Assembly: GCF_000177215.2 (NCBI RefSeq)
Contig: NZ_CM001369.1
Coordinates: 1-64,000, forward strand
Length of the DNA stretch: 64,000 nucleotides
From: Solidesulfovibrio carbinoliphilus subsp. oakridgensis
GTDB taxonomy: Bacteria; Desulfobacterota; Desulfovibrionia; Desulfovibrionales; Desulfovibrionaceae
Direction: 5' to 3'
Positions 5,929-64,000 of this stretch are shown here, one piece after another. Position 1 is the stretch's first letter. Every line of letters begins with the position of its first letter. A program made the position numbers and the translations under genes. The notes below the pieces were generated by a model that ran no database searches, was not told where the DNA came from, and saw only the letters and a program-made list of their open reading frames with translations.

Positions 5929-7236
5929 TTATGAATCCTCAAGCTCGGATTCCTGAAACCGCACGTCTTTGAGCAACAGCAGATGGCCGCTGTGCGAGAC
6001 CCGGTCATGGGAGATGACCCGCAAGACCGAGGCATCGTGGACCCAATGGGCCAGCTGGTGGTCATCGTAGGTGCCGTCGCCGATGGCCACGGACAAGGGG
6101 TAGGTGCCGTCCCGCAGGAAGGGGAAGGTGAAGGTGGTCTCCACCAGCCGGCGCTGCCCCGGCAACAGCGGGGCGAGCGGCTGGCCCAGGGCCGAGGAGT
6201 TGGACCCCGTCACCGGGTTGCCCTTCTCGTCGGTGACGAAAAACCCGAAAAGGGGACTGTGCAGGGGCCGCACGGCGGTCACCACCGCCCGCAGGGAGAC
6301 CGTTTCCCCGCCGGTCAGCACCGTGACCCGTTCCCCTCCCCCGGCCAGGCTCAAGGACACCTGCTCGATGACGGCCGCGCCGTTGCCAAAGGAATCGCGC
6401 CCCTCGGTCGATTCCATCACGCCCGGGGCGGCCACGGCCGCCTCGGCCTCGGGGGGCCCGGAGGCCGCCCGGTCCGTGTCCTCGGGCGGCAGTTCGCCGT
6501 AGGACATGTAGGAAATGAAATCGCGCACCACATCCTTGGTCACGCCCTGGCGAAAGACCTTGCCGTCCATGATCCAGACCACCCGGTGGCAAAAGGCCAG
6601 GATGGCGTTCATGTCGTGGGAGACGAAGAGGATGGTCTTGCCGCGCTTCTGGAACCCTTCGATGGTGCGCAGGCATTTTTGCTGGAACCGGATGTCGCCG
6701 ACGCTCAGGGCCTCGTCCACGATCAGGATGTCCGGATCGACGTGGATGGCCGCGGCAAAGGCCAGGCGGACGTACATGCCGCTCGAATAGCTTTTGACCG
6801 GCTGGTCGATGAACTCGCCGAGCTCGGCAAAGGCGATGACGTCGTCCAGGCCGGCCAGGGCTTCCTTTTTGGTGCGGCCGGCCAGGGTGGCGCCAAAAAG
6901 GATGTTCTCCCGGCCGGTCAGCTCCGGGTTGAACCCGGCGCCGAGTTCCAGGAGGGCGGAAATGGTGCCGCCGACGGCCACCGTGCCGGCGGTGGGGGTG
7001 ATGACGCCGGTGATGAGCTTTAAAAGCGTGGATTTTCCCGCGCCGTTCTTGCCGATGATGCCCACGGACTCGCCCGGGGCCACTTCCAGGTCCAGGCCGT
7101 TTAGGGCGTAAAAAAGGGAGTGAAACTGCTTCTTGAAAAGATGCAGGCTCTCCTTGAGCCGGTCCAGGGGCGAACCGTAGAGCCGATAGGCCTTGGTGAG
7201 GCCGGCGGCCACGACGGCTCCTGTGGCGATGTCCAT
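5929..7236 (-). CDS. wzt: ABC transporter ATP-binding subunit Wzt, with C-terminal glycan-binding domain
   Basis: This is the ATPase of an ABC-2 polysaccharide exporter (435 aa). Walker A is GIIGKNGAGKST near residues 59-70, the signature is the YSSGM form typical of the Wzt/TagH family, Walker B is ILIVDEALSVGD near 170-181, and the H-loop is FVSHDM. About 150 residues after position 285 form a beta-rich domain like the carbohydrate-recognition domain of Wzt from E. coli O9a, which selects terminally capped chains. Capping by methyl or phospho groups would fit the methyltransferases here, although the match is inferred. The chosen ATG has GGAAGG 4 nt upstream; an upstream ATG at 7254 is an alternative. 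It follows wzm. Confidence 0.93.
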   Translation of the reverse strand: MDIATGAVVAAGLTKAYRLYGSPLDRLKESLHLFKKQFHSLFYALNGLDLEVAPGESVGIIGKNGAGKSTLLKLITGVITPTAGTVAVGGTISALLELGAGFNPELTGRENILFGATLAGRTKKEALAGLDDVIAFAELGEFIDQPVKSYSSGMYVRLAFAAAIHVDPDILIVDEALSVGDIRFQQKCLRTIEGFQKRGKTILFVSHDMNAILAFCHRVVWIMDGKVFRQGVTKDVVRDFISYMSYGELPPEDTDRAASGPPEAEAAVAAPGVMESTEGRDSFGNGAAVIEQVSLSLAGGGERVTVLTGGETVSLRAVVTAVRPLHSPLFGFFVTDEKGNPVTGSNSSALGQPLAPLLPGQRRLVETTFTFPFLRDGTYPLSVAIGDGTYDDHQLAHWVHDASVLRVISHDRVSHSGHLLLLKDVRFQESELEDS

Positions 7237-7312
7237 GGGGCCTTCCGTATTCATCCGCAGGCCCCGGGCCCGGGACGCGGGCGGGCCGTCCCCGGCGCGG
7301 CCGGCACCCGCA

Positions 7313-8119
7313 TCAGATGACGTCCGCGAAATGGGGGCGCAGCTTTTGAAACACGATGCGCCCGGTGAAAAAAATCGCCAGGGTGACGAGCCAGAAATAG
7401 CCGGTCAGCATCGGGCGTTCCCAGAACCATCCGCCGTAGAGAAAGGCGCGGCGATAGCCGTCGATGAGATAGTAGGCCGGATTGAGCGCAATCCAGGGCA
7501 CATACCGGGCCGGCACCATCCCGATGTTCCACATAATGGGGGTGAACCAAAACCCGAACTGAATGCAGGTGGCGACCATGTAGCCGACGTCCGGAATGAA
7601 GACGATGAGGCTTGACGTCAGCCAGGAGAGGCCGACCAGCAGCACCAGCGAACCGGCCAGATAATAGGGGATCTGCAGCAGGGCCCAGCCGGGATGCTGG
7701 CGGTAGGCGACCAGGATGCCCACGACCACGACCAGAAAGAACATGTGGACGATGAGCGAGGAACCGATCTTGACCAGGGGCAGGATGCCCAAGGGGAAGA
7801 CGATGTTTTTGACCAGATAGCGGTAGCCCAGGATCGATTGGGTAGCGGCGGCCCAGGCTTCCGAGAAAAAAAACCAGGGGATGAGCCCGGCCAAGAGCCA
7901 GAGGATAAAGGGCCGGTCGCCCTGGGGCCCGGCCCGAAAGCCGACCTCGAAGACGAACCACAGAAGCAGCACGGTGATGCCGGGTTGCAGAAAGGCCCAG
8001 ACCACGCTCAGGTACGAGCCGAGAAATCCGGCCTTGAAGTCCCGCAGGACCAGTTCGAAAAAAAGGTGGGCGGTCCGTTTGGCCCGGGAGGCCCATGTGG
8101 GATATGACAAGCTGCTCAC
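7313..8119 (-). CDS. wzm: ABC-2 polysaccharide export permease Wzm
   Basis: The 268-aa product has about six membrane segments and the family hallmarks: an N-terminal RDFKAGFLGSYLSVVW stretch before the first helix, and NPAYYLIDGYRRAF before the last pair. It partners the Wzt ATPase encoded 76 bp downstream to move an undecaprenyl-linked glycan across the inner membrane. I start at GTG 8119, which has AGGA three bases upstream and gives the usual family length of about 260-270. Longer readings add a low-complexity Pro/Arg/Gly extension atypical of the family. Confidence 0.93.
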   Translation of the reverse strand: MSSLSYPTWASRAKRTAHLFFELVLRDFKAGFLGSYLSVVWAFLQPGITVLLLWFVFEVGFRAGPQGDRPFILWLLAGLIPWFFFSEAWAAATQSILGYRYLVKNIVFPLGILPLVKIGSSLIVHMFFLVVVVGILVAYRQHPGWALLQIPYYLAGSLVLLVGLSWLTSSLIVFIPDVGYMVATCIQFGFWFTPIMWNIGMVPARYVPWIALNPAYYLIDGYRRAFLYGGWFWERPMLTGYFWLVTLAIFFTGRIVFQKLRPHFADVI

Positions 8120-13533: not shown

Positions 13534-14919
13534 TCAGGGCTCGCGCAGGCTTTCGTCCAGGCCCTGGATGATGGGATAGGCCAGATAGCTGATGACCCGG
13601 CGTTCGCCGACGACGATCTCGGCCGTGACGGTCATGCCCGGCAGAAAGCGGGTATCCTTGCTCACGTCGTGCAGGGTCGTGTTGGTCAGCTCCACCCTGG
13701 CCTGATAGGTCGGCACCTTGTTTTCCCCGCTGGAGCCGACGACATAGGCATCCTCGGAAACCACCCGCAGGTCGCCTTCCATGGTGCCGTGGCGCTGGAA
13801 GGGAAAGGCGTCGAGCTTGATGCGCACCGGGTCCTTGAGGCGCACGTAGCCGATGTCCTTGGTCTCGATGGAGACCTCGGCCTCGAGCGGGAAATTGAGG
13901 GGCACCAGGGTCATGATGGCCTCGCCTTCCTTGGCCACCGAACCGACGGAATAGTTGCCGAGTTCGAGCACCACCGCGTCAAAGGGGCTGGCCAGTTCCG
14001 CCAGTTCCCGATACCGGATGGCCTTGGCGTTCTGTTCGACCAGGGTGTCGCGTTCCTTGCGGGCCGTGGCCAGATTGTTGGCAATGTCGTTGCGCCAGTT
14101 GCTGATGAAGGCCTCCCGTTCGGCCTGGGACTGGGCGATCTGCTGCTGGCGGACCTTCATGTCGTTGGAGATGCCCTCGGCCTCGGCCTGGGTGGAGGAA
14201 AACCGGGCCTGGGCGTCCAGCACGCTCAGGCGCGAGTCCGCGCCCTGGGAAAAGACCTTCTGGCGCATCTTGAGGACTTCGTCGGCGGACTGCAGCTGTT
14301 CGCGCAGGCTCTCCAGCCGCTTCTTGAAGGACTCGTACTCGCCCTTGGCCTGGGCCAGCCGGCTGTCGTAGTTCTCGAGCTTGGCGTGGTACTCGTTTTG
14401 GCGCCCCCGGTAGAGGTTGCTCTGCAGGGCGGCCTCGCTCGGGTCCATGTCGCTTGTGACCTGGAACGGCTTGCCGGCCAGCTCGGCTTCCATCCGCTTG
14501 AGCTGCACGGACAGCGAGGCCAGCCGGGTCTGGACCTGCGCCTCGTCGGCCATGGCAAAGGTCGGATCCAGGGACACGAGGGGCTGGCCCTTTTTGACCA
14601 CCTGCCCCACTTCGACATGGAACTTCTTGATGATGGAATTGATCAGCGGCTGGATGACCACCTGCTTGCCGGTGGAAATAAGGCGTCCCCGGGCGGTGAC
14701 GATCATGTCCATCTTGGCCACGATGGACCAGACAAGGGCGGCGATCACCAGGGCCAGCAGAAAATAATAGGTCAGCCGGACACTGGTCGGCAGGGGCTGC
14801 TTTTCCAGCTCCACGGAATCGGCCTGGAACTCCAGGACCCGGTGGTCGAGGGCCTGGCGATCCCGGACCCGAATCGGATTGATCTTGGCTAAGAAATTTT
14901 TTCCCGGTTCTTTTGTCAT
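13534..14919 (-). CDS. type I secretion membrane-fusion protein (HlyD family)
   Basis: This 461-aa periplasmic adaptor links the inner-membrane ABC exporter to an outer-membrane TolC-like channel. A short cytoplasmic N-terminus precedes one membrane helix (about residues 49-68); a lipoyl-like half follows (VVKKGQPLVSLD), then long alpha-helical hairpins (about 120-300), the second half-motif and the HlyD C-terminal beta-barrel with GMTVTAEIVVGERRVISYL. Length and order match HlyD/PrtE. Its ATG overlaps the ABC transporter stop codon by 4 bp, so the two are co-translated. No TolC-type gene is in the window, so the outer-membrane partner must be elsewhere. Confidence 0.93.
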   Translation of the reverse strand: MTKEPGKNFLAKINPIRVRDRQALDHRVLEFQADSVELEKQPLPTSVRLTYYFLLALVIAALVWSIVAKMDMIVTARGRLISTGKQVVIQPLINSIIKKFHVEVGQVVKKGQPLVSLDPTFAMADEAQVQTRLASLSVQLKRMEAELAGKPFQVTSDMDPSEAALQSNLYRGRQNEYHAKLENYDSRLAQAKGEYESFKKRLESLREQLQSADEVLKMRQKVFSQGADSRLSVLDAQARFSSTQAEAEGISNDMKVRQQQIAQSQAEREAFISNWRNDIANNLATARKERDTLVEQNAKAIRYRELAELASPFDAVVLELGNYSVGSVAKEGEAIMTLVPLNFPLEAEVSIETKDIGYVRLKDPVRIKLDAFPFQRHGTMEGDLRVVSEDAYVVGSSGENKVPTYQARVELTNTTLHDVSKDTRFLPGMTVTAEIVVGERRVISYLAYPIIQGLDESLREP

Positions 14920-17093
14920 GCCGATTGGACCTCAAGGACGGGTGCTTTCGTATGGCGGTTCTGGACGTCCCAGAGCTCGCGATACAGGGTGCACGTTTTG
15001 AGAAGTTCCTGATGTTTTCCCACAGCGATGACGCGGCCGCCGTCAATGACCACGATGCCGTCGCAGTCGGCGATCATGGAAAGCCTGTGGCTGATGATCA
15101 GCATGGTCCGGCCTTTGCTGATGGCCCCGAGGTTGCTTTGGATGATGGCCTCGCTTTCCGCGTCCAGGGCGGAGGTGGCCTCGTCCAGGATCATGATGCG
15201 GGGATTGAGCAGAAGCGATCGGGCGATGGACAGGCGCTGGCGCTGGCCGCCCGACAGGTTGGCGCCATTTTCCGTGATCGGCGTGTCGTAGCCCTGGGGC
15301 AGGCGCTGGATGAACTCGTCGGCCCCGGCCAGCCGGGCCACGTTGACGATCTCCTCGAAGGTGGCCGAGGGCTTGGTGTAGGAAATGTTCTGCCGGACCG
15401 TGCCGCGAAACAGGAAGTTCTCCTGGAGCACCACGCCGGTGCTGCGCCGCAGGTGGGGCAGGTCGATCTCCCGGATGTCCAGGCCGTCGATCTTGATGCT
15501 GCCTTCCTGGACCGGGTACAGGCCCTGGACCAGACGGGTCAGGGTCGATTTGCCGGAACCGCTGCGGCCGACAATGCCGACCGAAGCGCCGGGCGGCACG
15601 GAAAGCGTCACGTCCTGCAAGGCCGGCACGGTGCCCTTGGGATAGCGGAAGGTGACGTGCTCGAAATCGATGCGCCCGTTGATGGCCGGGGCCAGGCCGC
15701 GCACGTTCTGGGGCCGCTCGGTGGGCCTGTTCATGATGTTGCCGAGCATGTCGATGGAAAGGCCCACTTCCTGGTACTGGTGGAGCAGGGAAACAAAGCC
15801 GACCAGGGGCGAGCTGACGCGCTGGGACAGCATGTTGAAGGCGATCAGGGCGCCGACGGTCATCTGGTTGTCAAAGACCAGGGAGACGCCGACCCAGATT
15901 AGAAGAACGCTTGTTATCTTCTGAATGAAGTCCGTGATGGTCTGGATGGAAACGGAAAGCTTTCCCACCCGAAATTGCATGGAAATGGCCCGGGCGGACT
16001 GGTTGTCCCAGTTGCGCGACTGCAGGGGTTCCAGGGCCAGGGCCTTGATGGTCGGCATGCCGTGGATGGCCTCGACCAGGGTGGACTGCCGTTCGCCTTC
16101 CGCGTTGTAGAGATCCTGCAACCTCCGGCGGAAAATCGGAATGGCGAACCACAAGGTGGCGCCGATGATCAGCGACATGGCGACCACGATAAAGGAAAGG
16201 GTCACGCTGTACATGAAAATGATCGGGAAGACGACGAGCAGGACACTGAGGTCAAGGAGGGTGAACAGCAGTTTTCCCGTCAGGAAGCCGCGGATCTTTT
16301 CGGTCTGCTGCATGTGCTTGATCAGCACGCCGGCGGAACTGGCCTCGAAAAAGTCCGTGGGCAGGTAGAGCAGGTGGTTGAAGGTCCGCCGCGTCAGGCG
16401 CATGTCGATCTTGTTGGTGGCGTAAAGCAGCATGGTCTGCTTGATGTAACCGAAGGCGGCATCGAAAAGGAGCAGGACCCCCATGCCGATGGCCAGGGTC
16501 TGCAAGGTGGAAAACCCTTTGTGGACGAGCACCTTGTCGATGACCAGCTGAAAGAAGATCGGGCTGCCGAGCGCCAGGATGTTGATGATCATCGAGGAGA
16601 CCGCGACATCCCGGAACAGGACCTTCTCGCGGATGATCTCAGGCAGAAACCAGCGCAGCGAAAACGGCTGGGATTCGTCGGAAATCTTGTAGTTGCGCTT
16701 GATGAGGATGGTGACGCCGTCCCATATCTCCTCAAACTCCTCTTTCGTCATGAGCTTGAAGCCGGCCTGAAGGTTCAGAGGATCCAGGATGGCCACGCGC
16801 TTTTCTTCCGTGACCTGGATGCCGGAAAGAATGATGCTCTTGCCGCTTTTCAGGCGGGCAATGGCCGGAAAGGCCCCGCCCATGCGGAACAACTTGTCCC
16901 AGCTCAAGCGGGCTTCCTTGGCCTTGAAATTGTGCTCCTTGGCAATCCGGAGCAAATGGGGGATCAAGACCTCGGCATCCTGCACCGCATACTTATGCAA
17001 AAGGCCTTCAAGGGAAAAATCAAGATGAAAATGCCGTGCCACCAGGATAAAGCAGATCAAAGCGGTATGGTTGGCAGGATTGATATTGGACAT
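14916..17093 (-). CDS. type I secretion ABC transporter with inactive C39-like domain (HlyB family)
   Basis: The 725-aa exporter has a C39-peptidase-like domain (residues 1-130), a five- or six-helix transmembrane domain (about 155-440) and an ATPase (about 480-715) with Walker A GIVGRSGSGKST, signature LSGGQRQR, Walker B IMILDEATSALD and H-loop ISHR. The N-terminal domain lacks the catalytic Cys environment of true C39 proteases, as in HlyB, where it docks the unprocessed substrate. The start has GAGGA ten bases upstream. It should export the neighbouring metalloprotease encoded at 17489-18517. Confidence 0.94.
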   Translation of the reverse strand: MSNINPANHTALICFILVARHFHLDFSLEGLLHKYAVQDAEVLIPHLLRIAKEHNFKAKEARLSWDKLFRMGGAFPAIARLKSGKSIILSGIQVTEEKRVAILDPLNLQAGFKLMTKEEFEEIWDGVTILIKRNYKISDESQPFSLRWFLPEIIREKVLFRDVAVSSMIINILALGSPIFFQLVIDKVLVHKGFSTLQTLAIGMGVLLLFDAAFGYIKQTMLLYATNKIDMRLTRRTFNHLLYLPTDFFEASSAGVLIKHMQQTEKIRGFLTGKLLFTLLDLSVLLVVFPIIFMYSVTLSFIVVAMSLIIGATLWFAIPIFRRRLQDLYNAEGERQSTLVEAIHGMPTIKALALEPLQSRNWDNQSARAISMQFRVGKLSVSIQTITDFIQKITSVLLIWVGVSLVFDNQMTVGALIAFNMLSQRVSSPLVGFVSLLHQYQEVGLSIDMLGNIMNRPTERPQNVRGLAPAINGRIDFEHVTFRYPKGTVPALQDVTLSVPPGASVGIVGRSGSGKSTLTRLVQGLYPVQEGSIKIDGLDIREIDLPHLRRSTGVVLQENFLFRGTVRQNISYTKPSATFEEIVNVARLAGADEFIQRLPQGYDTPITENGANLSGGQRQRLSIARSLLLNPRIMILDEATSALDAESEAIIQSNLGAISKGRTMLIISHRLSMIADCDGIVVIDGGRVIAVGKHQELLKTCTLYRELWDVQNRHTKAPVLEVQSA

Positions 17094-17488
17094 GCAGTTC
17101 CTCGCGTTGGAATCCCTCTAGGATGAAACAGAAAAGCGCTGCGCAGCGTACGTGATTTTGAGACAGGCCGAGGCGGCATCCCGACCTTTTCTTTCCTGAA
17201 AGGGGTAGGGGGCATGAAGACAACGAACCGTTTCACCTCTCGCGACAGGAGAGAACCAGCGGGTAGTCACGTGTGTTCGCATCAGCCGCCGTGCGTTCGA
17301 ATTCTTGGAACGCGTGACAGAGGGAGCGCCGGGAATAACGCCCGATCGGCCGCCTAAACTGGACGAGACGGCCATTACAGCCATTCATGCCCTTTGTCGA
17401 TGGCTTCTTCCCCGGGGCCGGCCGGGGGGCAAAAAGCCGGGCACCTTTTCCGTGGCGCCCGGCCGGCCGGGCACCGCGCGAAAAGGCC
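17094..17488. promoter_or_regulatory. 395-bp intergenic region upstream of the type I secretion genes
   Basis: The gap separates the end of the metalloprotease gene from the start of the ABC exporter, both reading left. It contains a 12-bp palindrome, CGCTGCGCAGCG, at 17137-17148 and a GC-rich palindrome at 17459-17474 that could terminate the protease message. No open frame here has family resemblance, and no confident promoter is visible. Confidence 0.35.
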
Positions 17489-18517
17489 TCAGGCAAACGA
17501 GGACCCCAGCCCCTGTTTGCCGTCCACGCCGTCGGTGCCATAGATGTACTGCAGGGCCAGGACATCGTATTCCTGGTAATGATTGTACTTCGCAATATAC
17601 TCCTGGGTGGTGCCCGGGGTATAGGTATAGGACATGATGGTGTTTTCCATCGTATCCAGAGACGACGGGAGGGTGATGCTGCCTTCAAACGGATGCTTGA
17701 GCCCCACGGCATGGCCGATTTCATGAATAACGACCTGGTACCAGCTGTCCGTCGAGGGATTATACGTGTGGTACTGGTCGTTATCGATGAAGACTTCGGA
17801 AACCACTTTCCCATTGTAGGAGGAAGGATAATAGGCCTCGCCGGCCACGCCCGGATCGAGATTGGCCGTTCCGAACAGAATGTTGGCCGCGCTCGCGTCC
17901 GTGGTCTGCACGAAGGTGAGGCCTGTTATCTTGGCGCAGTCGCCCAGGGCCGTGGCAACGGAATTCCGTTCGGCCTGGTCCATGGCGGCAAAGTTCACGG
18001 GATCGAAGGACAACACATCGTCGCTCGGGCTTTGCATGAAGGCGTAATAAATGATCGGGCCGGGATTGTCGTTTAACGTCGTGGAACCGTAGGTCAGGGC
18101 GCCGATGATTGGATCCGACGCGGCGCTGCTGAAGGCATCGGCATTGCTGGACGCCTTGGGGGTCAAGCCTTCCTTTTTCCCGTACAGGAGATAATGATCC
18201 ACAGGATCGAGATTGCTGCCTTGAAAGGCTTCGGCCACTTGGGCGGCCGTCCAGTCGGTCCGGCCACCGGTGTGGTTCGTGTTGAGTTGCGTGGCCTTGT
18301 CCTGGTAGTATTTTCTGGTATTGAAATTTCGATTGGCATCGACGTCGATCTCGAAGGCGCTGTATTTAATATAATTCTCTTCCGGCGTCTGGCCGGCCGC
18401 TACAATGGCCTGCTTGGCGGTCTCGGCATTCCAATCCGTTTTCCCTCCGATCTGGCGGGCATTCAACGCATCGGCCTTGGAAATCAAAAAGAAGGATTCG
18501 TCAAACCAGTCCGCCAT
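17489..18517 (-). CDS. serralysin-type (M10) zinc metalloprotease, predicted type I substrate without RTX repeats
   Basis: The 342-aa protein carries the metzincin site HEIGHAVGLKHP (His265, Glu266, His269, His275) and the Met-turn MSY at 295-297, as in serralysin and ZapA. There is no Sec signal peptide, which fits export by the adjacent ABC/HlyD pair. Two features are odd. The C-terminal GGxGxDxxx calcium-binding repeats of serralysins are absent and the protein ends about 45 residues after the Met-turn. The N-terminus has two copies of a roughly 45-residue module (about 12-52 and 72-112), each with LN, GG[KR]TDW and a following helix. GGAGGG lies 5 nt before the ATG. Targets are unknown. 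Confidence 0.88.
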   Translation of the reverse strand: MADWFDESFFLISKADALNARQIGGKTDWNAETAKQAIVAAGQTPEENYIKYSAFEIDVDANRNFNTRKYYQDKATQLNTNHTGGRTDWTAAQVAEAFQGSNLDPVDHYLLYGKKEGLTPKASSNADAFSSAASDPIIGALTYGSTTLNDNPGPIIYYAFMQSPSDDVLSFDPVNFAAMDQAERNSVATALGDCAKITGLTFVQTTDASAANILFGTANLDPGVAGEAYYPSSYNGKVVSEVFIDNDQYHTYNPSTDSWYQVVIHEIGHAVGLKHPFEGSITLPSSLDTMENTIMSYTYTPGTTQEYIAKYNHYQEYDVLALQYIYGTDGVDGKQGLGSSFA

Positions 18518-18744: not shown

Positions 18745-20139
18745 TCAAGGCCCGGGGCTCCCGTCCCCCCCGGGGCTCGTCCGGTACTGTTTCATCCACC
18801 GGCTTTTGAGCCACTGTTCCCTGGGTCCCCCCACGTAACCGACCATGGCCGCTTGGAGGGCCTCCGGGGAAAGGCCGGCCCGCCAGGCCTCGTACTGGGC
18901 CTGCTCCGCCCGCTGGCGGGTGGCGGCAAGCTTTTTGGCCGTCTCCTCGGCGTCGAGCAGGGCCTGCTCCTCCGGGGAAACGTAGCCCGGCGGCTTGCGG
19001 TAATAGCCGGTCCTGGCCAGGGACCGGAACACCCAGGAGCAGGGATCGGCCACGGGAACGCCGTTTTTGTCGAGCATCTTCCCGTGCTCCAACTCCCACT
19101 CCGCATGGTGCAGGCCCTGGACGACCTTGTCCGGCCCGGTCCCGAGTTCGGCCAGGGCCAGGACGATCTGGTCGACCTGGGGGACGCCGAAGCCGTGGCG
19201 GGCCAGGTGCGGCCAGGTCAGCTGGATCCGCTCTTGAGAGATAGATAGATTCTTCTTTCTATCTATCTTCATAACCGGCCTTTGGTCTGTCCGGTCGGTC
19301 TGTCCGGTTGGTGTGTCCGATCGGTCTGTCCGATCGGTCTGTCCGGTCCCTTGGCCGAGCTCGAAAAAGGCGAAGGCCAGGGCCCGGGTGTTCCCCTGCC
19401 ACCAGTCGTTTTTTTTGAGGATGCCAACGGCTTCGAACTTGCGGATCACCGCCCGGACCGTACCCCGTGGAATGCCGATTTCATTGGAAATAACGTCGTA
19501 GGTGGTGACGTGGGAACCGTTTATCTGGAAGTAGCGGTAGACTGCGGCCTGGGCCGGCGTGGCCAGGGGGGAACGGGGGGTGAGCTTGACCCTGGTGGGG
19601 GCCTTTGGGGGCCTTCCTCTGTCCGGTACGATTGTCCGGTCAGTCTGTCCGGTTGGTCTGTCCGGTACGACTGTCTGGTCGGACAGTCCGATCGGACAGT
19701 CCGGTCTGTCTGTCTGTCCGGTCTGTCTGTCCGGTTGGTCTGTCCGATCGGACACACTAACCGGACAGACAGACCGGACAGACCCATCGGACAGTCCGGT
19801 TGGTCTGTCCGGTTGGTCTGTCCGGTACGACTGTCCGGTACGACTGTCCGGTTGGTTGGTCCGGTTGTTGTGTCCGGTCAGTGTGTCCGGTTGGTCTGTC
19901 TGGTTGGTCTGTTCGGTAGAAGTGTCCGGTTCGAGTGTCCGGTTGGTCTGTCCGATCGGTCTGTCCGGTTGGCCGGTCCGCCCGGCCGGGGTCAGGCCGG
20001 CCTTTTTCCGGGCAGCTTCTTCGTACTTGCGGGCATTGTCCTCGATTTCAGCCAGAAGGACCGCGTGTCCCGCCCCCTTGGACATCGTTGCCTGCGCCGA
20101 GGCGATGATCTGGTCGCGTAGGGTCAGACGGCGGGCCAT
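18745..20139 (-). CDS. ParA-partner winged-helix protein with repeat-encoded linkers (module 1)
   Basis: The 464-aa protein has five parts: a basic N-terminus (1-53, starting MARRLTLRDQ), a Thr/Asp/Gln/Pro/Arg-rich tract (54-173), a winged-helix domain (about 194-260; VISNEIGIPRGTVRAVIRKF is the helix-turn-helix), a second short tract (264-286) and a C-terminal domain (about 300-450) containing HHAEWEL, DPCSWVFRSLARTGYY and GYVSPEEQA. The low-complexity tracts are translations of a 13-bp DNA repeat read through all three phases, so the peptide repeats every 13 residues. Four copies are inverted and read as SVRSVCPVSVS. The gene follows parA by 4 bp, with AGGAG overlapping the parA stop. It is most simply a centromere-binding (ParB-analogue) protein; a replication initiator is the alternative. 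A paralogue starts at 62816. Confidence 0.82.
   Translation of the reverse strand: MARRLTLRDQIIASAQATMSKGAGHAVLLAEIEDNARKYEEAARKKAGLTPAGRTGQPDRPIGQTNRTLEPDTSTEQTNQTDQPDTLTGHNNRTNQPDSRTGQSYRTDQPDRPTGLSDGSVRSVCPVSVSDRTDQPDRQTGQTDRPDCPIGLSDQTVVPDRPTGQTDRTIVPDRGRPPKAPTRVKLTPRSPLATPAQAAVYRYFQINGSHVTTYDVISNEIGIPRGTVRAVIRKFEAVGILKKNDWWQGNTRALAFAFFELGQGTGQTDRTDRSDTPTGQTDRTDQRPVMKIDRKKNLSISQERIQLTWPHLARHGFGVPQVDQIVLALAELGTGPDKVVQGLHHAEWELEHGKMLDKNGVPVADPCSWVFRSLARTGYYRKPPGYVSPEEQALLDAEETAKKLAATRQRAEQAQYEAWRAGLSPEALQAAMVGYVGGPREQWLKSRWMKQYRTSPGGDGSPGP
19288..19347. repeat. 13-bp tandem repeat cluster, module 1, distal block
   Basis: Five copies of TGTCCG(G/A)T start at 19288, 19301, 19314, 19327 and 19340, each exactly 13 bp apart with a YGGT(C/G)-type spacer. 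They lie inside the winged-helix gene, between the regions encoding the winged helix and the C-terminal domain. Confidence 0.92.
19620..19969. repeat. 13-bp tandem repeat array, module 1, main block, with an inverted segment
   Basis: About 24 direct copies of (T/A)GTCCGRT start every 13 bp from 19620 to 19962, with one 4-bp slip near 19711-19715. At 19747, 19760, 19773 and 19786 four copies occur in the opposite orientation (ATCGGACA or ACCGGACA), again 13 bp apart. Junctions such as TGTCCGATCGGACA are palindromic. The array keeps the host reading frame open even though 13 is not a multiple of three. It is a candidate centromere or iteron site. Confidence 0.93.
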
Positions 20140-20143
20140 GGGG

Positions 20144-20917
20144 CTACTCCTGGAACATGTCCAGCAATTCGAGGGCGAGTTTGCGGAACTTGATGGTGGC
20201 CGTGGCCTTGGGGGCCGCCCGGATCACCGTCTGGCCCAGGGCTTCGGCCTGTTTGACCGCCGTACACCGGGGAATCATCGTGTCAAAGACGAGCCCCGGA
20301 TAGTTGATCATGGCGCTGGTGATAAAGGCCCGGTCCACGCCCTCCCGGCGATCTATCTGGTTGAGGACGAGCCGTAAAAAGCGCAGACTGGGATTGAGCG
20401 ACTCTTGAACGTATTTGATCGTGTTGATGGTCCGGTCGAGACCGACGGCCGCATACTTGGATCCGCCGGTGACGGGGCAGATGACGAAATCGGCCGCCGT
20501 CATGGCCTGCAAGGTGAATAGGCCCAGGTTCGGCGGACAATCGATGATCGTGAAATCATATTTCTGGTTGACGTAGTCGCGCAGACGCTGTTGTAAAAGA
20601 CTGTATCCCCTGTCCTCCCTGGCCATAAAGAGCGGCTCCAGGCCGCCGGAGTCCTCGGTATTGGGCAGAAAGAAAAGACGGTCGTAGGGCGTCGGATAAA
20701 TGCATTTGCCTGGATCGAGTCCGTCGCCGTCCAGCAGTTCGTAAAGCGTCTCGTCAGGGACCTGCTGGAAGAAATTCGACGTGGCGTTGCACTGGTTGTC
20801 CATGTCCACGATCAGGACATCGGATCCCCTATTGGTCAGTGCATGGCCCAGATTGACCGTGATAGTCGTTTTCCCGACACCACCCTTGTTATTGACGACG
20901 GCGATGATCTTCCCCAT
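20144..20917 (-). CDS. parA: ParA-family partition ATPase (module 1)
   Basis: The 257-aa protein is a small ParA/Soj-type ATPase with no N-terminal DNA-binding extension. The deviant Walker A is NNKGGVGKTT (residues 9-18), A' is VLIVDMDNQCNAT and Walker B is FTIIDCPPNLG. Such ATPases form ATP-dependent dimers on DNA and move cargo bound by a partner protein. ATG 20917 has GGAGG 7 nt upstream; the frame continues 37 codons further but those residues do not belong to the family. The partner gene starts 4 bp downstream. It is clearly related to the second ParA at 62007 in length and motif order. Confidence 0.93.
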   Translation of the reverse strand: MGKIIAVVNNKGGVGKTTITVNLGHALTNRGSDVLIVDMDNQCNATSNFFQQVPDETLYELLDGDGLDPGKCIYPTPYDRLFFLPNTEDSGGLEPLFMAREDRGYSLLQQRLRDYVNQKYDFTIIDCPPNLGLFTLQAMTAADFVICPVTGGSKYAAVGLDRTINTIKYVQESLNPSLRFLRLVLNQIDRREGVDRAFITSAMINYPGLVFDTMIPRCTAVKQAEALGQTVIRAAPKATATIKFRKLALELLDMFQE

Positions 20918-61433: not shown

Positions 61434-62006
61434 GCGGTCGTGTCCTCCGGGGCGTGGTGGTCGAACATCGCCCCCTCATAGGCAATGGGCGGGAAAGCGG
61501 CAACCGTGTCGTGGGCCGGGCGCGCCGGCCCGACCGCTCCAGGCCACACTGCAAGCCTGTCAGTAAGCCGGTCACAAGACCACACACGCTCTCTGGGCCG
61601 CCGGCTCCGGCCGCCCCGTCCCTGGCGTTTTTGGTTTTTCCTTATTTATGATAGAATGTTACGATATAAAATTGCCGGCCGGAAAATATTGACGAAAACT
61701 CGCCGGACATTGTCCGTCCCGGTGCCTAGATTGGGAACCGGAAAACGGTTTCCGGCCAACGGTTCGGACGCCGTTTCTCCATGGGGCACCGGCGAAAGCA
61801 ACGGCCCCCGCCCGGCCACACCATACCTGACCCGACCCATGATCCGACGGATGACCCGACAGGCGACCCGACCAGGGCGTTTCCCCGGGATCCGGGAAAG
61901 GGAGCAAAAAGAAGCTGATTTTTTGCAAACTCAACTGAAGCACCTTGACATAAAGGAATTTTTTCCGGAAGAAACAAGTGTCAATCCATAGAAAAGCAGG
62001 TGCTCC
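61434..62006. promoter_or_regulatory. 573-bp region upstream of parA (module 2), carrying repeat copies
   Basis: The divergent gap has an AT-rich zone near 61640-61680 (possible leftward or rightward promoter elements around TTATTTATGATAGAAT), the four-copy 12-bp repeat at 61828-61872, and TTGACA at 61945-61950 about 55 bp before the parA GTG. TTCCGGAA at 61963-61970 is a small palindrome just after it. No gene is visible. The TTGACA probably belongs to the parA promoter, with a weak -10. Confidence 0.5.
61828..61872. repeat. four 12-bp repeats upstream of parA (module 2)
   Basis: TGACCCGAC, TGATCCGAC, TGACCCGAC and CGACCCGAC start at 61828, 61840, 61852 and 61864, exactly 12 bp apart. They match the repeat inside the winged-helix gene downstream but lie in non-coding DNA, about 135 bp before the parA start. 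Confidence 0.92.
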
Positions 62007-62792
62007 GTGGGAATCATCATCACGATCGCCAACAACAAGGGCGGCGTCGGCAAAACGACCCTGACATGCAACCTGGCCCACGCCCTGGCCCTCAAGGGGG
62101 GGCGGGCCCTGGTCATCGACACGGATTCGCAATGCAATGCGACCAGTCTTTTGACCGGCGGAAACATATCATTTCAAAATTCATTATATGATATTCTGAC
62201 ATCCCGAGATTTGGCCCCCAAGAAAGCGATCATTGAATCATCAATCAAAAAAATAGACCTGTTGCCGAACAGTTCCGATACGGCAGTCCTGGAATACGAC
62301 TTGTCCCAGAACCTGCCGGAAAACTATTCCATCCTCCGTTCCAGAGTTCGTGATTATGTAAAAGAAAAGTATCAATATGTTTTAATAGATACTCCTCCAA
62401 ACCTTGGTTATTTTTCCCTTTCCTCCCTTTTCGCCGCTGATTTCTGTATCGTTCCCATTTCCGCCGGTTCCGCCTACAGCATCGAAGGCCTTTTGCGGGT
62501 TTTGGCGATCATCGAGAAAATCCAGGAAGACGGCAATCCGGATCTCCGTTTCCTGCGCCTTCTCGTCAATAACATCGACCGCAGAACGGCCATGGGACGG
62601 GTTATCGTTTCCGAGCTCGAAAAGAATTTCAAAGGCAAAATGTTTGAAACGCATATTCCGCGCAGCACGGTTTTCGAACAAGCCGAATATATCAAATCGA
62701 CCGTGTTCGGGAATCATGCGACAACCTATGGCGCAAAAGCCTATCGTGAATTGGCGACCGAACTAAAGCGCATTCTCGGCAGCCCTGAGTAG
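62007..62792 (+). CDS. parA: ParA-family partition ATPase (module 2)
   Basis: The 261-aa protein is a small ParA with deviant Walker A NNKGGVGKTT (residues 8-17), A' VIDTDSQCNAT and Walker B VLIDTPPNLGY. It starts at GTG 62007 with AGCAGG 6 nt upstream. It is related to the ParA of module 1 in length and motif order but differs elsewhere. Its middle is AT-rich, with ATA, TTA and TAT codons that are rare in neighbouring genes, so it may have arrived separately. The repeat-bearing partner gene starts 23 bp downstream. Confidence 0.93.
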   Translation: MGIIITIANNKGGVGKTTLTCNLAHALALKGGRALVIDTDSQCNATSLLTGGNISFQNSLYDILTSRDLAPKKAIIESSIKKIDLLPNSSDTAVLEYDLSQNLPENYSILRSRVRDYVKEKYQYVLIDTPPNLGYFSLSSLFAADFCIVPISAGSAYSIEGLLRVLAIIEKIQEDGNPDLRFLRLLVNNIDRRTAMGRVIVSELEKNFKGKMFETHIPRSTVFEQAEYIKSTVFGNHATTYGAKAYRELATELKRILGSPE

Positions 62793-62815: not shown

Positions 62816-64000
62816 ATGCCCGAGCCCAAGCCCAGGCGATCCATTTTCGACACGCTCAAAAAGTCGGCGGACGGCCGGCTCGGCCTGGCCGAAGCCGCGC
62901 GCATGGCGGATAAGATCAGCGTCTTCCCCCAAAAGAAGCCTGACCCCACGTCTGATTCGATGTCTGGGCCGACCTATGATCCGACGGATGCCCCGACTCT
63001 TGACCCGACAGGTGATCCGACCGTCGGGCCAAGCGACGGTCCGGCAAAAGAGCCGACCCATGACCCGGCCATTGACCCGACCCGACACGCGGGTCACGTG
63101 TCGGATCATGAGCCGACACGTGACCCGACAGGTGTCGGGTCATCTGTCCCGACCGGGGTCCCGACCCGTGATCCGACTCCTGACCCGACCATTGATCCCA
63201 CCCTTGGCCCGACCGCAAAGAGTGATCCGACCCATGATCCGACCGGTGATCCGACCATGCGGCGATTGGTCCGCAGCCTGCCAGAGAGCAAGCGCCGCTT
63301 CCTGCACTGGATCATCGACAACGAGCCGTCCGGCGACGATTACATCATCAGCCGGCGAACGGTGGCGAACACGCTCAAACTCACCGAGATCTCGGTCAAA
63401 AGATACTTCGCCGAGTTCGCGGGTCTGGGCTTTTTCCGCAAGGAAACGTATCGGCACGGCATCTGCCAGGGGGTCCGGTTGTTCCTGGTCCGATCCCGAT
63501 GCCAGGCGTTCAAGCGCTGTGCCCCGACCTATGATCCGACAGGTGGTCCAACCACCGGGCATGATCCGACCCTTGCCCCCTCGAAAGACCCGACCCCTGA
63601 TCCGACCGCTTCTTATGAAGAGAGACAGAAAGAGAATCTATCTCTCTCTCTTTCCGCCGCCCGGATCGCCGCGACCTGGCCGCACCTGTCCCGGTCCGGC
63701 TTCGGCCGGGAGCAGCTCGCCCAGATCGGGGCCGCCCTGGCCGAGCTCGGCAAGCCCGCGGACAAGATCGGGCAAAGCCTCGACCACGCCGAATGGGAGC
63801 TTTTGCGCGGGGCCATGCGCGACAAGGACGGCCGGCCCGTGGCCGATCCGTGCGCCTGGGTCTTCCGGTCCCTGGCCCGGACCGGCTATTACCGCCGCCC
63901 CAAAGGCTACGTGTCGCCCGAGGAGCAGGCCGCCAGGGATGCGGAGGAGGAGGCCCGGGCGGTCGTCGCCGCCCGGCAGGCGGCCGAGCAGGCCCGGTTT
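62816..64000 (+). CDS. ParA-partner winged-helix protein with repeat-encoded linkers (module 2), cut by the window end
   Basis: The frame from ATG 62816 is open for 395 codons to the window edge. Residues 1-42 are short and basic (PEPKPRRSIFDTL). Residues 43-147 are a Asp-Pro-Thr-rich tract encoded by the 12-bp DNA repeat. Residues about 148-235 form a winged helix (VANTLKLTEISVKRYFAEF). A second DPT tract follows (about 236-263), then the C-terminal domain (about 283 onward) with TWPHLSRSGFG, DHAEWEL, DPCAWVFRSLARTGYY and GYVSPEEQA. That last domain matches the module 1 protein closely, while the linkers share no sequence with it. The start has only a weak GGGG site. Function is inferred as for module 1: centromere-binding partner of the adjacent ParA, or a replication initiator. 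Confidence 0.85.
   Translation, partial: MPEPKPRRSIFDTLKKSADGRLGLAEAARMADKISVFPQKKPDPTSDSMSGPTYDPTDAPTLDPTGDPTVGPSDGPAKEPTHDPAIDPTRHAGHVSDHEPTRDPTGVGSSVPTGVPTRDPTPDPTIDPTLGPTAKSDPTHDPTGDPTMRRLVRSLPESKRRFLHWIIDNEPSGDDYIISRRTVANTLKLTEISVKRYFAEFAGLGFFRKETYRHGICQGVRLFLVRSRCQAFKRCAPTYDPTGGPTTGHDPTLAPSKDPTPDPTASYEERQKENLSLSLSAARIAATWPHLSRSGFGREQLAQIGAALAELGKPADKIGQSLDHAEWELLRGAMRDKDGRPVADPCAWVFRSLARTGYYRRPKGYVSPEEQAARDAEEEARAVVAARQAAEQARF
62941..63255. repeat. 12-bp tandem repeat array, module 2, main block
   Basis: About 23 forward copies of TGAYCCGAC, some degenerate, start every 12 bp from 62941 to 63247, with breaks near 63085, 63133 and 63211. Inverted copies (GTCGGATCA or GTCGGGTCA) lie at 63100 and 63134, and a degenerate one near 63088, giving dyads such as GACCCGACA-GG-TGTCGGGTC. 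Since 12 is a codon multiple, the forward copies read as Asp-Pro-Thr-x, but the inverted ones do not. Confidence 0.9.
63520..63606. repeat. 12-bp tandem repeat cluster, module 2, distal block
   Basis: Seven copies of TGAYCCGAC (several degenerate) start at 63520, 63532, 63544, 63562, 63574, 63586 and 63598. They lie after the winged-helix coding part and before the conserved C-terminal domain, the same position as the distal block of module 1. Confidence 0.85.

Follow-up and report, generated by a model that had tools for sequence, protein, structure and literature searches.

A 13-bp site array inside the gene of a ParA partner protein as a candidate in-gene replication origin of Desulfobacterota plasmids

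Several plasmid and phage systems are known in which a protein's binding sites, or a replication origin, lie inside the protein's own gene. The relevant sections of PMC5703833 describe how, in the RepA_N family, the N-terminal winged helix-turn-helix (wHTH) part of pSK41 Rep binds repeats in its own rep gene, how the linker encoded by the origin can be deleted from the protein, and how the C-terminal part contacts the host factor DnaG; in the same sections pPR9 Rep appears as a chimera, in which N-terminal part and origin region have been exchanged while the C-terminal part is >97% identical, and the replicon is compatible with pSK41. According to part of PMC5043065, the lambda O gene, which encodes the initiator, contains the iterons that the initiator binds and, next to them, an A+T-rich stretch of 40 bp; the repABC portion of PMC3155836 places the RepC gene of p42d in an operon with a ParA-type gene and locates oriV at or close to an A+T-rich region of repC. 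For SCP2, the passages of PMC12260392 on ParA-ParT-parS describe a ParA partner with its binding site in its own coding sequence. Here we analyse the first 64,000 bases (1-64000; hereafter the window) of contig C2 (NZ_CM001369.1; 97,864 bp) of Solidesulfovibrio carbinoliphilus subsp. oakridgensis, whose 4.22-Mb genome comprises three contigs, and which carries on its minus strand, at 18745..20139, a 464-aa ParA partner gene with an array of 13-bp repeats. An initial annotation had called these repeats centromere-like, had proposed that they act as parS, as an iteron origin or as both, and had taken such self-embedded sites to be undescribed for this gene pair. For the family as a whole this last claim holds within our searches of the open PMC literature, which gave no description (subscription papers lie outside that scope), but in-gene sites as such are known from SCP2 parT, RepA_N, lambda O and repC. 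We have also exchanged the centromere for an origin as the leading reading: on balance, the partner gene probably encodes a plasmid replication initiator that has its own origin inside the coding sequence and is paired with ParA, with a centromere role possible.

The gene is laid out as N-terminal helices, block 1 of the array, wHTH, block 2, an inverted repeat and a C-terminal helical domain. With sites defined as TGTCCGRT and one mismatch allowed to TGTCCGGT, the two blocks together contain 33 sites, 28 forward and 5 inverted. Block 1 (19618..19970, minus strand) encodes a segment upstream of the wHTH that is predicted to be disordered and holds 23 forward sites, between 19620 and 19969, together with the 5 inverted ones; block 2 (19284..19347, minus strand) encodes a segment downstream of the wHTH and holds 5 forward sites, at 19288-19347. 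Three further one-mismatch sites in the gene (18778, 19128 and 19970) are out of register and were not counted. The first inverted copy reads ATCGGACA on the plus strand (19691..19698), and the other four, at 19747, 19760, 19773 and 19786, form a plus-strand sub-block (19747..19793) in which the peptide is altered (SVRSVCPVSV) and the DNA motif retained. Exact TGTCCGRT occurs 27 times inside the gene and 3 times in the rest of the window. All 19 exact tandem pairs of the form TGTCCGRT-N5-TGTCCGRT in the whole genome fall within this gene, and a reversed control pattern has 0 matches genome-wide. The site positions thus bear out the initial annotation in placing the array in the ParA partner's own gene, in two blocks flanking the wHTH coding part, and in counting about 33 copies; the strict 13-bp period it described holds only within runs, being interrupted in two places, near 19685-19715 and in the inverted segment (19747-19793), where spacings of 6, 7, 17 and 19 occur.

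We compared the gene with 300 shuffles of itself that preserve both the peptide and the codon usage. The commonest 7-mer, counted on both strands, occurs 24 times in the gene, compared with a mean of 7.3 and a maximum of 12 in the shuffles (n=300), and the lag-13 self-match of the gene has a z of 7.0 against codon shuffles. The array exceeds all 300 shuffles, and the repeats are therefore not forced by the peptide. Across the 23 units of three uninterrupted runs, a set that leaves out the units between 19685 and 19793 and whose runs were themselves chosen for 13-bp spacing, the 8-bp core is the most conserved of all 1287 selections of 8 from 13 positions. Within the 13-unit run, identity is 0.90-0.93 in the core and 0.31-0.60 in the spacer at six distances from 1 to 8 units, a pattern that differs from that of a fresh neutral duplication. 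These are whole-run figures; earlier core-versus-spacer values were dropped because their sites had been picked by core match and were biased. In addition, the block-1 motif predicts block 2 in the window gene (own score 67.3, shuffle maximum 54.4, n=500), and among six orthologues of a subgroup with the motif TGATACC, synonymous changes at motif codons fall below the amino-acid-matched expectation in 15/15 pairs, with p<0.05 in 14. An expectation that 13-bp arrays would have fewer silent-frame stops than 12-bp arrays was not borne out (3.3 versus 4.3 per 100 codons; n = 9 and 16; p 0.44).

Neutral expansion of a tandem repeat, tolerated in a disordered linker, would agree with the predicted disorder of the linker and with the lengths of array-bearing homologues, which range from 371 to 1115 aa. 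It would leave unexplained, however, why cores are conserved while spacers have diverged, why inverted copies exist, why one motif is common to both sides of the wHTH, why synonymous sites are constrained in one subgroup, why co-resident genes have different motifs, and why non-coding copies lie upstream of the second parA gene of the window (parA2, described below). We consider neutral expansion very improbable. Among homologues, the array peptides vary (as judged by eye), and the period is mostly 12 or 13 bp (a few arrays have 10, 17 or 19-20) with one dominant motif per gene, which is not the picture of a conserved peptide over a freely varying period and motif. The shuffle excess, the core conservation and the inverted segment with its altered peptide therefore indicate that the DNA, rather than the linker peptide, is under selection, as first proposed. 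It is very likely that the array acts at the DNA level and is read by the gene's own wHTH.

The partner gene is a member of an unnamed family on Desulfobacterota plasmids, some copies of which stand beside conjugation genes. Relatives occur in 25/119 sampled genomes of the bacterial family, the window's own included, in 9/395 sampled genomes of the phylum, and in 13 plasmid records; sulfate-reducer genera account for 12 of these records, the other being a weak Burkholderia match (E 0.008). The protein has no match among the phage records searched. Seven of the eight PLSDB records examined have no assigned replicon type. We collected 65 open reading frames (ORFs), of which 48 remained distinct once near-duplicates had been removed. 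Of the genes that could be tested (47), 30 have DNA-level repeats: the 7-mer count is above that of every codon shuffle in 25, the lag score in 22, and at least one of the two in 30. Motifs differ from gene to gene, and 28 of the 35 genes assigned a motif have no further match to it in the flanks examined. The block upstream of the wHTH predicts the downstream block at p<0.01 in 19/44 genes, the window gene among them, and a gene's own motif model ranks first among all models in 19/44. The homologue L046, on the Nitratidesulfovibrio vulgaris megaplasmid pDVUL01, has 1115 aa and a long GTCACCC-rich repeat region, and in L021 (~2290-2411) and L031 (~2067-2095, both counted from the frame start) motif copies run on just past the stop codon. 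One homologue, L049, lies on a contig labelled as a Spirochaetia metagenome-assembled genome and is close to the Solidesulfovibrio copies, which probably reflects a binning error or a recent transfer.

Natural exchanges of the wHTH over a conserved C-terminal domain link motif and wHTH among close relatives. There are 29 gene pairs with a C-terminal identity of at least 0.70; they are not independent, and the five motif-sharing pairs derive from three clusters. The five pairs with wHTH identity of at least 0.75 have motif similarities of at least 0.86, which is around the 99th percentile or higher of all 595 pairs, whereas the 24 pairs with wHTH identity of 0.54 or below have motif similarities of 0.56 or below. 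This comparison (5/5 versus 0/24) upholds the proposal that the motif is matched to the wHTH. For example, L049 and L050 share 91% of the C-terminal domain and 19% of the wHTH, and their arrays are unrelated. A single genome, G482, has five copies (L064, L068, L071, L072 and L073) whose C-terminal domains are 78-97% identical to one another but whose wHTHs are only 28-54% identical. Each copy has its own best motif, although those of L068 and L073 are partly alike and that of L072 is weak; the five look like five compatible replicons. The window genome likewise has three systems with three distinct motifs. Some pairs with wHTH identity of at least 0.60 have middling or low motif similarity: L024-L025 (0.32), L024-L044 (0.31), L024-L038 (0.35), L025-L044 (0.51) and L044-L038 (0.49). 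The L024 motif is probably wrong, since its seed 7-mer falls within its shuffles. We infer that the array and its cognate wHTH form one cassette that fixes plasmid compatibility.

An AT-rich inverted repeat, AGATAGATAGA-8-TCTATCTATCT (19239..19268, minus strand), sits at the inner edge of block 2, ahead of the C-terminal domain coding part, and is the proposed opening element. At the sequence level the gene thereby has the layout of an iteron origin, with tandem direct repeats adjoining an A+T-rich element. The gene-wide AT maximum lies between block 2 and the C-terminal domain in 28/44 genes, and the inverted repeat recurs across the family: the best one of the region was judged to be the AT-rich element in 35/44, although several of those kept score only 7-8. 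The remaining nine (L046, L021, L031, L027, L019, L023, L071, L029 and L047) were dropped by judgement, their best repeat not being the AT-rich element; in L021 and L031 the inverted repeat is not at the usual place. The letters of the arms vary, with GATAGATAGA, TAGTAGTAG, AGTAAGTAG, ACAGACAGA and GAGAGAGAT as arm types. Three or more pair types are seen at every one of nine pair positions, with no more than 4/35 mismatches at any of them, which is partly so by construction, the repeats having been picked for complementarity; the codon shuffle is the fair test. In the 119 family genomes sampled, the exact GATAGATAGA type was located at 6 distinct places, spread over 4 of the genomes, and every one of these places lies in a member of the gene family; a reversed control pattern matches one place. 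On pDVUL01 (a 198-kb record) the sole GATAGATAGA inverted repeat lies just past the 3′ end of L046. Six viral contigs also have a GATAGATAGA inverted repeat, with no family member found on the stretches examined.

A minimum of cumulative GC skew is a signature of replication origins. Among 11 plasmid-sized replicons, the minimum falls within the open frame of the gene in 7 (pDMC2, pDRET01, CP045507, CP045505, G025:C2, CP116247 and pDVUL01) and lies 16-361 bp from the inverted repeat in six; the second-lowest minimum of pDMC1 is ~150 bp from its inverted repeat. Fisher's combined p is 8e-5 for minima and 0.97 for maxima over 10 replicons, G025:C2 having been excluded because it shares its gene with pDMC1; when restricted to the 8 of these whose skew range is significant, it is 4e-4 for minima. 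Consistent with an origin, no recognised initiator was found among the 8/12 annotated proteins scanned of the 8.9-kb pDMC2, whose other four proteins are ParA, the partner protein and a toxin-antitoxin pair, nor among the 10 main ORFs scanned of C3, another contig of the window genome. The incomplete gene tables of pDMC1 and pDRET01 name no initiator. Separately, pDMC2 has two genes for DnaB-like helicase C-terminal domains (L039 3057-5169). With the skew minima, the inverted repeat, the arrays that lack a ParA gene (below) and the two small plasmids scanned, the origin has stronger independent evidence than the other functions named in the initial annotation, and at the family level that evidence is good.

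We propose a mechanism in which the winged helix would bind the 13-bp sites of both blocks as iterons, and the protein-loaded array would help the AT-rich inverted repeat, which lies between block 2 and the part encoding the C-terminal domain, to open. The C-terminal domain, on flexible hinges encoded by the array, would engage a host replication factor, perhaps through a helicase or primase contact. Array and cognate wHTH, as parts of one cassette, would be exchanged together, and such a swap would change compatibility and leave the C-terminal domain as it was. The neighbouring ParA probably segregates the plasmid through the partner protein or the array.

A number of observations weigh against the origin. 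For an iteron origin, an array of some 30 sites is large and a 13-bp unit is short. Iteron-type origins often have DnaA boxes, and no strict DnaA box (TTATNCACA) was found near the gene in the 4 replicons scanned. The inverted repeat exceeds codon shuffles at p<0.05 in only 23/44 genes; in the window gene its p is 0.06, and array copies form a higher-scoring inverted repeat (20 versus 11). The C-terminal domain has a confident all-helical model for which no clear relative or known family was found. GC skew also tracks gene orientation. In CP045507 and CP116247 the minimum is in the open frame yet ahead of the annotated start codon, and the skew range is non-significant in pDMC2 (p 0.51) and pDRET01 (p 0.08). 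Minima also lie outside the gene, at 1.8 kb in CP090010, 2.1 kb in C3 and 14.6 kb in pDMC1, and on C2 itself, which we infer to be a plasmid, the minimum is 35.8 kb from the gene at 18745..20139 and 6.9 kb from its second copy. The active origin of C2 may be this second gene or another site. Finally, when all 30 array genes enter a rank Mantel test, the motif correlates more with C-terminal identity (r 0.31) than with wHTH identity (r 0.12; partial 0.07, p 0.12). Most pairs share no motif, so this test has little power, and for the coupling of motif and wHTH we rely on the close-pair comparison above.

The adjoining ParA gene suggests a different reading, in which the array would serve solely as a centromere (parS). 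The protein would then bind this centromere, coating the ~30 sites in its own gene, and stimulate ParA, and something else would replicate the plasmid. A ParA gene lies upstream in 33/57 homologue rows, a count that includes duplicates; 26 of the 33 have a scored array, and in 7 the array is below threshold. Two of these seven are the window's second gene and another, L110, is spoilt by N. Of the 57 rows, some include little upstream DNA (L052, L077, L079 and L099). The threshold is strict, since the array of the window's second gene is plain and yet falls below it. A large number of short wHTH sites would be in keeping with known centromeres, and the parS within the gene of SCP2 ParT offers a precedent. 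Foldseek matches to the wHTH are generic, none below E 0.001, and include AspA (4rs8, 5k5o, 5k5q) and TubR (6tey); the N-terminal basic helices could contact ParA. However, a centromere would not explain the AT-rich inverted repeat, and the skew minima mark the gene as an origin. In addition, pDRET01 (L116) has annotated ParG and ParA-ParG genes (661-888 and 6987-7847) besides its ParA/wHTH pair, and arrays occur in 9 of the 24 rows in which no ParA was found upstream (the other 15 have no array). We therefore regard a purely centromeric array as unlikely.

ParA is not an obligatory companion, since some array-bearing copies lack it. The TGATACC-type relatives L086, L089, L091, L092, L093 and L112, whose sites are under synonymous constraint, have no ParA upstream. 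Neighbours were scanned at three ParA-less loci: L093, which has an array, adjoins TrbI, TraG/VirD4-type and ArdC/Toprim genes, and L082 and L085, which have none, adjoin MobA/MobL and TrbL genes. This optional link counts against a sub-case of the origin reading, in which one protein and one embedded array serve both as initiator with iterons and as ParA partner with centromere. All of the evidence for an origin and all of that for a centromere would agree with such a dual role, as would the tight linkage to parA, and the incomplete gene tables of pDMC1 and pDMC2 name no ParB-like gene. We hold the dual role to be a real but tentative possibility. To the same tentative degree we can picture a plasmid core of two genes, parA and the partner gene, whose one in-gene array would be both origin and centromere and whose array-wHTH cassette would make new compatibility groups while the C-terminal domain stays unchanged.

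The genome has three copies of the gene: the one described above, a second on C2 (62816-64135) and one on C3 (21,111 bp). The second system lies on the plus strand of the window and consists of parA2 (62007..62792) and partner gene 2 (62816..64000 in the window, continuing to 64135 on the contig), with an array of the 12-bp motif TGAYCCGAC that includes 15 exact sites, 2 of which are inverted. Three exact copies and one variant of this motif lie upstream of parA2 (61828..61872, plus strand). All 18 exact TGAYCCGAC copies on C2 are at this locus, 3 of them in the non-coding DNA upstream of parA2, and the position of these three suggests autoregulation too. One might suppose that the array is an operator, from which the protein merely represses its own operon; the homologue L047, with 3 motif matches at -967 to -1081 from its frame start, upstream of its parA, would agree with this. 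Yet the first system of the window has no such copies upstream of parA, and 20-30 sites, placed hundreds of bp inside the gene, are far more than an operator would need. We judge it improbable that the array is an operator alone.

The upstream gene, parA (20144..20917, minus strand; the longest ORF extends to 21028), encodes a Walker ATPase (PF13614, 9.7e-42; phrog_164 ParA-like, 2.3e-57), and its stop is 4 bases from the ATG of the partner gene, so that a ParA ATPase gene adjoins a putative binding-protein gene, as in ParA-type partition loci. The partner gene, a putative replication initiator gene, is defined by its ORF, a structure model and the 48 distinct homologues; searches of Pfam, NCBIfam and PHROGs profiles gave nothing below E 0.01, and no ParB/KorB-type domain of the canonical ParB (CTPase clamp) kind is among the Pfam and NCBIfam matches listed at E<=1. 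In the model, the N-terminal basic, helical segment (19999..20139, minus strand) has helices at residues 7-17 and 25-46 with low predicted confidence (pLDDT 56-78) and is a possible ParA contact. The wHTH (residues ~191-260; 19360..19569, minus strand) is modelled with block-mean pLDDT of 82-98, the peptide encoded by the array is predicted to be disordered (pLDDT ~40-45), and the conserved all-helical C-terminal domain spans residues ~301-450 (18790..19239, minus strand). Elsewhere in the window, 13534-18517 contains a gene for a matrixin-like metallopeptidase, found in a profile scan of the peptidase only; by eye, adjoining ORFs resemble an HlyD-type protein and an ABC transporter, which could make up a type I secretion set.

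If the proposed origin is correct, the family is a Desulfobacterota replicon type that has no matched family in Pfam, NCBIfam or PHROGs and is mostly left untyped by plasmid typing. Its reading frames would have been written to fit a frame-breaking repeat, and plasmid compatibility would evolve by swapping one in-gene cassette. Synonymous recoding would separate DNA function from protein function, and the loci could be a source of replication modules for sulfate-reducer genetics.

The family is not matched by the sequence models of RepA_N or RepC but shares with them, and with lambda O, the logic of an in-gene origin. The Pfam domain of RepA_N was not matched, the RepC family is not among the Pfam and NCBIfam matches listed at E<=1, and the lambda O-type family is represented by an O-like match to phrog_391 at a weak E 0.32, with no Pfam match listed. 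A Geobacter replicon, pSZ77, was set aside, as the part of PMC3403914 that describes it concerns a different RepA. Like RepA_N genes, the gene has origin-type repeats within it, here as sequence only, and, like pPR9 in the sections cited above, the family shows modular exchange over a conserved C-terminal part; as those sections describe them, however, RepA_N genes have four Rep boxes in a central linker, in contrast to ~33 13-bp sites flanking the wHTH here, and belong to Gram-positive plasmids. With lambda O, as portrayed in the portion cited, the locus has in common iteron-like sites and an AT-rich element within the gene of a putative initiator, whereas lambda has four 19-bp inverted-repeat iterons and no ParA partner. 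The repABC operon resembles the proposed arrangement in linking an initiator gene to a ParA-type gene, with the origin inside the former, but in the account of p42d cited repC is without iterons and there is a separate ParB-type RepB with a parS region. SCP2, according to the passages cited, differs in having one 18-bp inverted repeat, a sliding clamp-type protein and a role in partition only, and its ParA-linked homologues are mostly from Actinomycetota. What is new relative to these systems is the combination of three features: dense arrays of 12-13-bp sites that flank the wHTH on either side, an inverted repeat that varies in its letters, and direct pairing with ParA.

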